Source: Gemmatimonas groenlandica (GTDB lineage: Bacteria > Gemmatimonadota > Gemmatimonadetes > Gemmatimonadales > Gemmatimonadaceae). Taken from it: DNA of 64,000 nt. Of this stretch, positions 37,157-58,866 are shown piece after piece. Both the position numbers and the translations under genes were made by a program. Where the stretch lies: positions 1,364,001 through 1,428,000 of the forward strand of contig NZ_CP053085.1 of assembly GCF_013004105.1 (NCBI RefSeq), given 5' to 3'. Every line of letters starts with the position of its first letter. Positions within the stretch are counted from its first letter, which is position 1. The notes under the pieces were generated by a model. That model was given only the letters and a program-made list of their open reading frames with translations, was not told the DNA's origin and made no database searches.

Positions 37157-37765
37157 ATGACCGACATCCTCGCCTGGCTCTCGTCGCTGCCGGAGCCGCT
37201 GCTCTACGGCGCGCTCGTACTCGCGGCCTTCGCGGAAAACATCTTTCCGCCGCTGCCGGCCGATACCGTCATCGCGCTCGGTGCCTTCGTGGCAGCGCGC
37301 GGAAATGGCAGCGCCGTCGGCGTCTGGACCGCGACGATGATCGGAAATATCGGTGGCGCCATGATGATGTACGGGCTTGGGCATCACTTCGGACTCCCCT
37401 GGCTGATGCAGCGTTTTCCTTCGCTGTTTCCGGCGGGAGCGACCCAACGCGTCACCGAGCGTTTCAAGTCGCAGGGAGTGCTGGCCGTCATCGTGAGCCG
37501 CTTTCTTCCTGGTGTACGGGCCGTGGTGCCGCCGCTGGCCGGCGCGATGGGAATAGGTGCCGTGCGAGCCCTGCTCGCGATGTCGCTGGCGTCCGGTGCG
37601 TGGTATGGACTGGTATGCGTCCTGGCCTTTCGCGCTGGTGCGAATGCCGACGCCCTGCTGGCGCGGATCGCGGCACAGCAACGGACGGTCGGCCTGGTCG
37701 CTGCGGCGATCGTCGTCCTGGCCATCGCGGTCATCTGGTGGCGACGGCGGAGCAGTCGACCGTGA
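37157..37765 (+). CDS. DedA-family membrane protein
   Basis: 202 aa. DedA/SNARE-associated family, thought to act as lipid carriers (undecaprenyl phosphate or phospholipid recycling) at the inner membrane. Visible family features: ENIFPPLPADTVIALGAF with re-entrant helix, GNIGGAMMMYGLGH, and SRFLPGVRAVVPPLAGAMG. Four to five hydrophobic segments; a basic C-terminus. The stop overlaps the start of the recombinase gene. Confidence 0.82.
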   Translation: MTDILAWLSSLPEPLLYGALVLAAFAENIFPPLPADTVIALGAFVAARGNGSAVGVWTATMIGNIGGAMMMYGLGHHFGLPWLMQRFPSLFPAGATQRVTERFKSQGVLAVIVSRFLPGVRAVVPPLAGAMGIGAVRALLAMSLASGAWYGLVCVLAFRAGANADALLARIAAQQRTVGLVAAAIVVLAIAVIWWRRRSSRP

Positions 37766-38697
37766 CGGCTTCTGTACCGACCCCCTCGCCTGAAGAGCAG
37801 TCCCTGCGTCGAGGATTCCACCTCCTCGCGTTCGAGGATGCGCTTGCCCTCGAGGAAAGGGCGTCGCCGCGCACGATCGAAGCCTATCGTCGTGACGTGA
37901 TACGTTGTGCGGCGTTCATGCGCGAGCAGGGCATCACCAAAGCGACCGAGATCACGCCAGGATCGCTGCGTGAATTCGTGTACCACTTGAAGGATCTCGG
38001 GCTCGCCGGCACGTCGATCCGCCGGAACATCTCGGCGTTGCGCACCTGGTTCCGCATCATGCTGGCCGAAGGACTGGTAACGCACGACCCGACCGAGCGA
38101 CTCGACACGCCGGCGCGATTCCGGACGCTGCCGGAAGTGCTCACTGTCGAGGACGTCTTGAAGCTCCTGGCCGCGCCCGGCCTCGACGAGCGGCTTGCGT
38201 TCCGGGACCGCGCGATGCTCGAGTTGGCCTATGGCGCCGGCCTCCGCGTGTCCGAATGGATCGGGCTGGCGCTCAAGGACGTCCTGCTCGACGAGGGCTT
38301 GGTGCGCGTGCTGGGTAAGGGCAGCAAGGAGCGCCTCGTGCCCATCGGCCGCTCCGCGATCGGTGCCGTTGCGGTGTACGTCCGTGAACTGCGTCCGGTG
38401 CTGGAGCGCGGCGAAGGAAAGGGCGTCCTGTTTCTCAACGGACAAGGGAAGCCGCTCACCCGGATGGGCGCGTGGAAAATCCTCCGCAAGTACGTCACGA
38501 TGGCCGGTATCGAGAAGCCTGTGTCCCCGCACACGCTGCGGCACTCCTTCGCGACCCACCTGCTGGAGGGGGGGGCCGATCTCCGCGCGGTGCAGGAGAT
38601 GCTCGGCCATGCCGATATCGCCACGACCCAGATCTACACGCACGTGGATCGCGAGTATCTTCGAAGTGTGCACCGCCAGTTCCACCCGCGTCCCTGA
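37762..38697 (+). CDS. tyrosine recombinase of the XerC/XerD family
   Basis: Site-specific recombinase resolving chromosome dimers, 311 aa from the GTG at 37762 inside the DedA stop (GTGA). N-terminal SAM-like DNA-binding domain (ALEERASPRTIEAYRRDV). All catalytic residues present: R162 (GLRVSEW), K186 (GKGSKER), H257 and R260 (HTLRHSFATHLLEGG), H283 (LGHADIATTQIYTH) and nucleophile Y292. This is the housekeeping Xer pattern, not a phage integrase. A candidate target, a dif-like site, lies about 19 kb downstream at 57887. XerC and XerD cannot be told apart here. Confidence 0.9.
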   Translation: MTASVPTPSPEEQSLRRGFHLLAFEDALALEERASPRTIEAYRRDVIRCAAFMREQGITKATEITPGSLREFVYHLKDLGLAGTSIRRNISALRTWFRIMLAEGLVTHDPTERLDTPARFRTLPEVLTVEDVLKLLAAPGLDERLAFRDRAMLELAYGAGLRVSEWIGLALKDVLLDEGLVRVLGKGSKERLVPIGRSAIGAVAVYVRELRPVLERGEGKGVLFLNGQGKPLTRMGAWKILRKYVTMAGIEKPVSPHTLRHSFATHLLEGGADLRAVQEMLGHADIATTQIYTHVDREYLRSVHRQFHPRP

Positions 38698-56047: not shown

Positions 56048-56809
56048 GTGACCCGAATTCCGACTCCGGCGCGTGGTTCACTCGCGCTGGGCGAGCGCGC
56101 CCTCGTGATCGTCCCGACGTACAACGAGAGCGAGAATGTCACCCGCATCGTACCGCTGATCCTCGCGCAGGACTCGCGGCTCGATGTGTTGGTGGTTGAC
56201 GACAATTCTCCTGATGGCACCGGTCAGCTCGCCGATCAGCTGGCCGCGGCCGATCCACGTGTGCATGTGCTGCATCGGGCAGGGAAGGAGGGACTCGGCC
56301 GTGCGTATCTGGCCGGGTTCAAGTGGGCGCTCGAGCGCGACTACGCCTTCATCTTCGAGATGGATGCCGACTTTTCCCACGATCCCGGGCATCTCCCTGA
56401 GTTCCTGGCCGCGATCCGCGACACCGATTTGGTGCTTGGGTCCCGCTATCGCGACGGCAAGGTGACGGTCGTCAATTGGCCGATGACGCGGCTCATGTTG
56501 TCGTACGGCGCGAACATCTATGCGCGCGCGGTGACCGGCCTGCGGTTGGGCGACGCGACGGGCGGCTTCAAGTGCTTTCGGCGCGAAGTGCTGATGGCGA
56601 TCCCGCTCGATCAGGTCCGGTCCAACGGATACGCCTTTCAGATCGAGATGAGTTTCAGGGCCTGGAAGCGGGGATTTCGCATTGCTGAGATTCCTATCGT
56701 CTTCCACGATCGCACGGAAGGCGAGTCGAAGATGTCCAAGCGTATCGTTCGTGAAGCTATTTGGATGGTGTGGCGCCTCCGCTGGTGGGCCATTACGGGG
56801 AACGCGTGA
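56048..56809 (+). CDS. polyprenol monophosphomannose synthase-like GT2
   Basis: 253 aa from GTG 56048; soluble, no membrane helix. DPM1-like motifs: VIVPTYNESENV, LVVDDNSPDGTGQL, KEGLGRAYLAGFKWAL, FEMDADFSHDP (DxD), DATGGFKCFRREVL and FHDRTEGESKMSKRIV. Likely makes polyprenyl-phosphate mannose or glucose. Follows the YfhO-like gene by ten bases; the stop overlaps dapF. Confidence 0.87.
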   Translation: MTRIPTPARGSLALGERALVIVPTYNESENVTRIVPLILAQDSRLDVLVVDDNSPDGTGQLADQLAAADPRVHVLHRAGKEGLGRAYLAGFKWALERDYAFIFEMDADFSHDPGHLPEFLAAIRDTDLVLGSRYRDGKVTVVNWPMTRLMLSYGANIYARAVTGLRLGDATGGFKCFRREVLMAIPLDQVRSNGYAFQIEMSFRAWKRGFRIAEIPIVFHDRTEGESKMSKRIVREAIWMVWRLRWWAITGNA

Positions 56810-57648
56810 CCGCGCCCTTGTCGACGTTACGCGGAATTCCCTTCGCGAAGATGACGGGATCGGGTAATGATTTCGTGTTTTTCGACGGCCGTGATGTGCC
56901 ACTCGAACGTGTGACATCACCTGAGGTGATACAGTCTATCTGCAATAGGCACAACGGTATAGGAGCCGATGGCATTGTCGTTCTCGAACCGGCGCGTCCC
57001 GAGGCGGATGTGCGGATTCATTACTTCAACAGTGATGGAACGCCGGCCGATCTCTGCGGAAACGCGACGCTCTGCTCGACGTCCATGTCGGCCATGCTGG
57101 GCCTTGCCGCAGATTCGGGAATGACGCTCACCACGCCGGCCGGCCTCATTGCCAGCCGCGTCGGCGACGGGCTTCCCGAGATCGATCTGCAGCCGGTCAG
57201 CGGGATCCGACCTGCCATGCCGATCGACCTGGTCGTCGGTGAAGAGCGTATCGGCTTCGCCATCGCCGGCATTCCGCATCTCGTGATCCTGTGCGCCGAC
57301 GCCGATGCGGTGGATGTGGAAGGTCGCGGGCCGCTACTGCGCCGGCATCAGGCGTCGGGCCCGGCGGGGGCGAATGTGAATTGGGTCTCGCCGATGGTAG
57401 GCGGCCAGTGGCGGTATCGCACGTTTGAGCGCGGCGTGGAGGGCGAGACCTTGGCCTGTGGCACCGGAGCCGTCGCGACGGCGGTGCTGCTGACCGCGTG
57501 GGGGCTCGTTGCGCCATCGACGGTGGCGATGCGCACCAGCTCCGGCCGCGATCTCGAGGTGCGTCTGACGGCGACGGAGTCGGGCTTCCGACCAACGCTT
57601 CGTGGTGAGGGCCGCGTGGTATTCCGCGGCGTAATCGACTCGATCTGA
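56806..57648 (+). CDS. dapF: diaminopimelate epimerase
   Basis: Converts LL- to meso-diaminopimelate for lysine and peptidoglycan, 280 aa from GTG 56806. AKMTGSGNDFVFFD start; two catalytic cysteines C84 (ADLCGNATLC) and C218 (LACGTGAVAT), and FERGVEGETLACG. The first active-site loop deviates from the usual CGNGxR: it reads CGNATL, so the conserved Arg is replaced by Leu. Last + gene before the terminus region; convergent with the TPR gene. Confidence 0.9.
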   Translation: MTAPLSTLRGIPFAKMTGSGNDFVFFDGRDVPLERVTSPEVIQSICNRHNGIGADGIVVLEPARPEADVRIHYFNSDGTPADLCGNATLCSTSMSAMLGLAADSGMTLTTPAGLIASRVGDGLPEIDLQPVSGIRPAMPIDLVVGEERIGFAIAGIPHLVILCADADAVDVEGRGPLLRRHQASGPAGANVNWVSPMVGGQWRYRTFERGVEGETLACGTGAVATAVLLTAWGLVAPSTVAMRTSSGRDLEVRLTATESGFRPTLRGEGRVVFRGVIDSI

Positions 57649-57886
57649 GCGGCCGCCGCGCCTCTGTGCGGCGAGCTGGCCAGTTTGCGCTGTTGGCGCG
57701 AGCTCATGCGGTCCATATCACACAAACCATGTGGGAAGGTGGACAGCTTTACGGTTCGTGAGCTTTGACTGCCGAGCCAGATGTGCAGAGAAAGGCTAAC
57801 GCACATATCTGGAAGGGTTTACCGCATTCATCCACAGCGTGATGGAGAAATCCCCAAATCTTTTCCCACAGTTATCCACCAACAAT

Positions 57887-57914
57887 GGTTTACATAACAT
57901 GTATTATGCGCATA
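57887..57914 (-). other. dif: dif-like chromosome dimer resolution site
   Basis: Read on the minus strand: XerC arm TATGCGCATAA, six-base centre TACATG, XerD arm TTATGTAAACC. As I recall them, E. coli dif is GGTGCGCATAA / TGTATA / TTATGTTAAAT and the B. subtilis XerD arm TTATGTAAACT. Matches are 9 of 11 (XerC arm), 8 of 11 (XerD arm against E. coli) and 10 of 11 (against B. subtilis). The 11-6-11 layout is exact. It lies where the gene strand switches from + to -, as expected at a terminus, and a Xer recombinase is encoded about 19 kb away. Confidence 0.85.
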
Positions 57915-58089: not shown

Positions 58090-58755
58090 TCAGTTCTTAA
58101 CGGCTCCGGCCAGCTCGCCAAGGCGGACGTTGGCTTCCTGAGCGGCCGGACTGTCCGACTTCGCCAAGGCCTCCCAAATCGTTTTGGCTTCGGCATTCTT
58201 GCCGGCGGCCATGAGACTGCGTGCTTCAGACGCCTTATAGCTGTTCTTGTCGTTCTCGAACTTCGCCGCCGCCGAAGCCTTGCCGTAGTGCGTCGCCGCG
58301 TCGGCCAGCTTACCCTGAAGCTCGTAGCCGACCGCGATCATCGATTCCATCGACGCCTTAAAGTCTGCACTGGCGCTGCCAACCGACTTTTCGAGCGACG
58401 CAATACCCTCGGCGTACTTCTTCTGCTCGAACTGCGTTTGCGCCAGCAGTAGCGAGGCCTGCTGGCCCGAAGCCGTACCCGAATAGCCCTTGGCCACCTT
58501 GTCGAGCGCCTTCGTGGCCTCGTCCAGCTTGCCCTGCGCCATCGGAGCCTGGGCAGCATACAGTGCCGTTGACGCCTTCGCGTTCTGGCCCGACGAATAG
58601 CTGCGGTAGCCGAAAATTGCGAGCGCAGCCACGGCGACGCCGCCAACTGCCATGCCGATCGGACGGCTGTTCGACTGGAACCAGTCGCCAAGCTTCTCCA
58701 TCGGATCGTCGGAGAGGCTCGAGGAGGACGACGCGGAACGGGACGACTGGGCCAT
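58090..58755 (-). CDS. membrane-anchored tetratricopeptide protein, YfgM-like
   Basis: 221 aa from the ATG at 58755. Ser-rich cytoplasmic N-terminus, one membrane helix (residues about 33-53, PIGMAVGGVAVAALAIFGYR), then TPR-like helical repeats (ALYAAQAPMAQGKLDEATKAL; LLAQTQFEQKKYAEGIASLEK; GYELQGKLADAATHYGKA). This resembles YfgM, which works beside the Sec translocon in the periplasm. Role inferred from architecture. Confidence 0.7.
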   Translation of the reverse strand: MAQSSRSASSSSSLSDDPMEKLGDWFQSNSRPIGMAVGGVAVAALAIFGYRSYSSGQNAKASTALYAAQAPMAQGKLDEATKALDKVAKGYSGTASGQQASLLLAQTQFEQKKYAEGIASLEKSVGSASADFKASMESMIAVGYELQGKLADAATHYGKASAAAKFENDKNSYKASEARSLMAAGKNAEAKTIWEALAKSDSPAAQEANVRLGELAGAVKN

Positions 58756-58866
58756 GCGGAAGACCAGCGATGAGGGGCGAAGAACGAAACGGACGAAGAT
58801 AGCCTTATAACATAGTGCCGCATGCTCCCGGAGTGTATGGGGGCGTGCGGATTGCACTCGAGAAGG

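Follow-up and report, generated by a model that had tools for sequence, protein, structure and literature searches.

The window analysed here is a stretch of 64,000 nucleotides from the chromosome of Gemmatimonas groenlandica, and all positions refer to it unless stated otherwise. Near its right end, dapF and the gene of a TPR-repeat protein run towards each other and leave between them a gap of 441 bp, from the end of dapF at 57648 to the TPR gene at 58090, which agrees with the gene-free stretch between convergent genes described in an earlier note on this DNA. Inside the gap lies a 28-bp dif site, and on the side of its XerD arm lie two short repeats that we call box A and box B. The features of the locus, together with the xerD gene of the same window, are as follows.

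37762..38697, plus strand: xerD, with a GTG start at 37762; 350.9 bits against TIGR02225, whose cut-off is 329.6.
56761..57648, plus strand: dapF, given as the longest ORF (the true start may be further in); adjoins dif on its XerD side, an arrangement kept across the order.
57729..57746, plus strand: second box pair ATGTGGGAAGGTGGACAG (also CTGTCCACCTGTCCACAT; minus strand CTGTCCACCTTCCCACAT), in opposite orientation and farther out, conserved in the genus only.
57756..57763, minus strand: octamer CTCACGAA, which adjoins the second pair and is conserved across the genus.
57862..57870, minus strand: box B, TGTGGGAAA (plus strand TTTCCCACA), 10 bp from box A.
57872..57880, minus strand: box A, GGTGGATAA (plus strand TTATCCACC), DnaA-box-like; its GTGGATAA begins 7 nt from dif.
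57887..57914, minus strand: dif, the whole site, TATGCGCATAA-TACATG-TTATGTAAACC, in an 11-6-11 layout.
57887-57897, minus strand: XerD arm, TTATGTAAACC.
57898-57903, minus strand: dif centre, TACATG.
57904-57914, minus strand: XerC arm, TATGCGCATAA.
58090-58857, minus strand: gene of the TPR-repeat protein; adjoins dif on its XerC side, an arrangement likewise kept across the order.

The site dif is where XerC and XerD unlink fused sister chromosomes as replication ends. The 28-bp site has the exact layout that the earlier note had read at this position, on the minus strand, with two 11-bp arms that resemble known XerC and XerD arms around a 6-bp centre. A search pattern that joins the XerC arm of E. 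coli to an XerD arm of the Bacillus type matched the 64-kb window once and had zero matches in 100 dinucleotide shuffles. The 28-mer is also present in one copy per chromosome, since allowing up to 3 mismatches it occurs a single time in the 5.18-Mb single-contig genome, and the equally good matches elsewhere that would have spoken against the site were thus not found. The machinery expected to act on dif is encoded as well. The Xer protein at 37762, which the earlier note had named as a possible binder, is a bona fide XerD with a TIGR02225 score above the cut-off, and it is expected to bind the XerD arm. XerC, encoded at 460.6 kb, exceeds its curated NCBIfam cut-off, and an FtsK with the gamma domain is encoded in the genome, so that XerC, XerD and FtsK-gamma, the full gene set of a standard dimer-resolution system, are present; recombination by this set is predicted from the genes. 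A third tyrosine recombinase is integron-integrase-like (TIGR02249, 441 bits; G000:C1:4064027, L050), and an integron may adjoin its gene.

We then considered the location of the site relative to the replication terminus. For the genome-scale skew and KOPS figures, stretches adding up to 858 kb were sampled. Left of dif the windowed GC skew is mostly positive, and from dif on it is negative. Over the sampled stretches its value is +0.017 on the arm from dnaA to dif versus -0.020 on the other arm; in the sampled stretches of the far left arm the skew is weak, mixed and noisy. The change of sign proposed as a check near 57.9 kb is therefore seen, from positive to negative, at the site. In the same 858 kb we ranked all octamers, assuming no motif, by the frequency with which they are oriented to dif, and the top octamer of this unbiased screen was GGGCAGGG (44 versus 3), which is a form of the KOPS motif GGGNAGGG. 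In the sampled sequence, all 15 KOPS left of dif (-181 to -1.6 kb) are on the plus strand and point right, and all 12 right of dif (+5.1 to +84 kb) are on the minus strand and point left. The distance from dnaA to dif is 0.44 of the chromosome, and it is 0.42 and 0.45 in two single-contig relatives. Among further genomes having dnaA and dif on one near-complete contig, the distance is 0.44-0.50 in five (G046, G084, G094, G095, G098), and the misfits are G219 (0.26) and G099 (0.16, with a weak dif match). A genome of family f9, G180, has two dif-like sites on one contig (777057 and 3732202; L246, L247) and is also a misfit to this pattern. With a skew switch, an exact switch of KOPS polarity and a position roughly opposite dnaA, the site lies at the replication terminus, as the earlier note had claimed. 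Its further claim that gene direction flips at the site stands as a strong strand bias and not as an absolute flip: counted over long ORFs, about 43 kb are on the plus strand versus 13 kb on the minus strand in the left part of the window, and 8.1 kb versus 10.4 kb in the 20 kb beyond the window. On the sequence evidence taken together, 57887-57914 is a genuine chromosomal dif, at which recombination is predicted to take place.

The site and its neighbourhood are conserved. With a dif profile built from 17 sites, dif was detected in 173 of 200 Gemmatimonadota genomes, mostly as a single match. Within families f1, f2 and f3, all three of the window's order (f5, f7, f9 and f11 denote other Gemmatimonadota families), 57 loci were fetched; dapF lies on the XerD side of dif in 52 of them, and in 47 the XerC side is taken by the TPR gene. 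The suggestion to look for the 28-mer between these two genes in relatives is thus borne out by a TPR-dif-dapF order kept across the three families. We regard dif as a terminus marker for the whole of the Gemmatimonadota. The Gemmatimonas dif module also occurs on a contig of a public MAG that bears the label Candidatus Kuenenia stuttgartiensis (CALQGY020000030.1, L026); this contig is probably mis-binned. A dif was already predicted in the only Gemmatimonadetes genome then available (Kono et al. 2011, PMC3025954); the prediction for the phylum is not new, and dif in Gemmatimonadota is of a known kind. The text of that paper nowhere refers to accessory, flanking or DnaA sequences, and the predicted dif is common to both studies, whereas accessory boxes are described only here.

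Although the dif site itself was read correctly in the earlier note, the reading was not complete, as it missed the boxes at 57862-57880, with which dif forms part of a larger conserved unit. In the genus alignment, GTGGATAA-S-TGTGGGAAA, which stands 7 bases beyond the XerD arm, is essentially invariant while its surroundings have diverged, and in the genomes of the genus this 18-mer, at 0-1 mismatches, is found only at dif. Over 46 genera of the order the unit consists of two 9-bp boxes, 10 bp apart, with the consensus TGTGGANAA (other strand TTNTCCACA). GTGG of the inner box is at +6 or +7 from dif and that of the outer box at +16 or +17, and where a genus has both boxes, the two are almost always displaced together. 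Of the 46 genera, 40 match the consensus at 8/9 or better in the outer box and 20 in the inner box, and every one of the 46 sampled genera has at least one box at 7/9 or better, the background rate of a box by chance being 1.5e-4. Most loci were chosen by the dif sequence alone; two of the genera (G264 and G300) were found by means of the box pattern itself, and leaving them out gives 38 of 44 for the outer box and 18 of 44 for the inner box. As outgroups for the boxes we used E. coli and the other Gemmatimonadota families. No box was found beside dif in families f7, f9 and f11, the loci of which were likewise chosen by dif sequence, as in the box-bearing families. In family f5, a box in mirrored orientation, mostly TTTTCCACA, stands on the XerC side of dif at 7 of 31 loci, which represent four genera. 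The boxes are also kept in genomes where dapF is not adjacent (G054, G057, G128, G178 and G047), which argues that they belong to dif. We conclude that the boxes are probably an accessory, protein-binding site of dif in the window's order; binding by a protein, and the role of that protein, are inferred. A box at a base-pair-exact distance from dif in 46 of 46 genera points to an extra regulator of dimer resolution or termination.

In the E. coli-type picture the chromosomal dif is under the control of FtsK, and accessory sequences are a property of plasmid sites such as cer and psi. The Gemmatimonas site shares with the E. coli dif/XerCD and FtsK-KOPS system the 28-bp, 11-6-11 site, the arms, a single copy at the terminus, KOPS GGGNAGGG pointing towards dif, and XerC, XerD and FtsK-gamma. 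It differs in the position-locked boxes on the XerD side; the flanks of the E. coli dif have no such boxes. With plasmid cer (ColE1) and psi (pSC101) it shares an Xer core with an adjacent accessory protein-binding sequence, binding here being a prediction. The accessory DNA of cer and psi is about 180 bp and serves PepA together with ArgR or ArcA (PMC5357621); these sites are plasmid-borne, whereas the Gemmatimonas unit is chromosomal, about 20 bp long and of a different motif. In a search of the open literature we found no accessory site at a fixed distance from a chromosomal dif. A chromosomal dif with a position-locked accessory site thus appears to be new, dif itself being known.

Our main reading, to which we give a probability of about 85%, is that the site is the dif of a canonical FtsK-KOPS-XerCD dimer-resolution system that has been extended in the window's order by an accessory, probably protein-binding site. 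Of the two arms of dif, XerC would occupy the right one and XerD the left one, and FtsK, steered by GGGNAGGG pointing to dif from both sides, would join two dif copies at the septum and activate XerD, so that recombination at dif would split the dimer into monomers. The two TGTGGANAA boxes lie on the same helical face, at fixed offsets of 6/7 and 16/17 bp from the XerD arm. Bound at 6-25 bp outward of this arm, a factor would stand in the path of the arriving FtsK, or would touch XerD or lie beside it. Such a factor could assist recombination by helping to assemble or activate the synapse, could delay or time recombination until a cell-cycle signal, or could pause forks at dif.

The binder is most likely DnaA, to which we assign somewhat less than an even chance, most of the remainder going to another factor. 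The box consensus TTNTCCACA resembles the TTWTCCACA boxes close to dnaA in the same genomes, which are mostly TTTTCCACA and TTATCCACA, and the DnaA of the genome has the DHSTV recognition signature. The 9-mer TTNTCCACA is likewise close to TTWTNCACA, the DnaA box of oriC, datA and DARS; it differs from those boxes in being at dif, in an unconstrained position 3 and in its 10-bp tandem arrangement. Position 3 is free in the dif boxes and mostly A or T in the boxes of the dnaA region (Fisher p = 6e-4), so the dif boxes are not simply copies of strong DnaA boxes, and the Gemmatimonas boxes TTATCCACC and TTTCCCACA deviate from the DnaA consensus. Repeats in known DnaA arrays are spaced by 11 bp or more, and the 10-bp spacing of the dif boxes is tighter than this. 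We advance only tentatively, as a proposal that may well fail, that a built-in site for DnaA (or a dedicated terminus factor) at the XerD arm would couple dimer resolution to the initiation state or cell cycle across the order.

Other explanations were weighed against this reading. It is extremely improbable that the 28-mer resembles dif by chance or as a relic and that the working dif lies elsewhere. Nothing was found in favour of this, there is no second match in the genome, and conservation, the KOPS switch and the skew switch all coincide at the 28-mer. An unlikely but more serious alternative is a replication fork trap, Tus/Ter-like or RTP/Ter-like, to which the boxes would belong and in which opposed pairs would arrest forks. 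Within the genus two pairs do face each other beside dif, roughly 115-150 nt apart, loosely like terI and terII of B. subtilis, which are about 0.1 kb apart (PMC13220808); the opposed second pair is genus-specific, however, only the pair locked to dif being present elsewhere in the order, and a fork trap has no need of a rigid spacing to dif. The boxes might instead serve dapF or the TPR gene, as control sequence or as part of a 3' region, and be tied to dif by synteny only, given that these two genes are the neighbours of dif in most of the order's genomes. We consider this very unlikely: the boxes keep their offsets to dif (6/7 and 16/17), whereas their distance to dapF ranges from tens to hundreds of bases, the boxes persist in genomes without an adjacent dapF, and there is no promoter to control at the site because dapF and the TPR gene both end there.

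Among other possible binders, MraZ recognises direct repeats of the GTGGG type, 10 bp apart, and the dif boxes share this 10-bp periodicity and a GTGGR core. Its domain (PF02381) was found in 0 of 15 genomes tested from families f1-f3, which carry the boxes, and this makes MraZ an almost negligible candidate in the order, short of a form too diverged for PF02381; the same domain is present in 7 of 7 tested genomes of families f5 and f11. An Xer or integrase that binds arm sites was rejected, as the three tyrosine recombinases fit the XerC, XerD and integron-integrase models with normal lengths. A DnaA-like double-AAA protein, encoded in a GTPase operon, was rejected as well: its matches stop before the DNA-binding domain, and G055, which has a single DnaA-type match, still carries a box. 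A matS-like system dispersed over the terminus was set aside after counting boxes, which occur at 18 per Mb near dif versus 15 per Mb elsewhere and are not enriched. With regard to an RNA element, there was no Rfam match above the gathering score; with regard to spread by plasmids, no plasmid match; and with regard to spread by phages, the sole viral match, on a contig that also carries ribonucleotide-reductase-like genes, appears to be due to chance.

The double-AAA protein of the window's genome has 591 aa with two tandem DnaA-type AAA+ domains (G000:C1:1714214-1715791; L044, L045) and also occurs in G001 and G002. It shows no sign of the DnaA DNA-binding domain, and its gene adjoins an MglA-like GTPase gene. 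Similar double DnaA-type AAA+ matches are found in many relatives.
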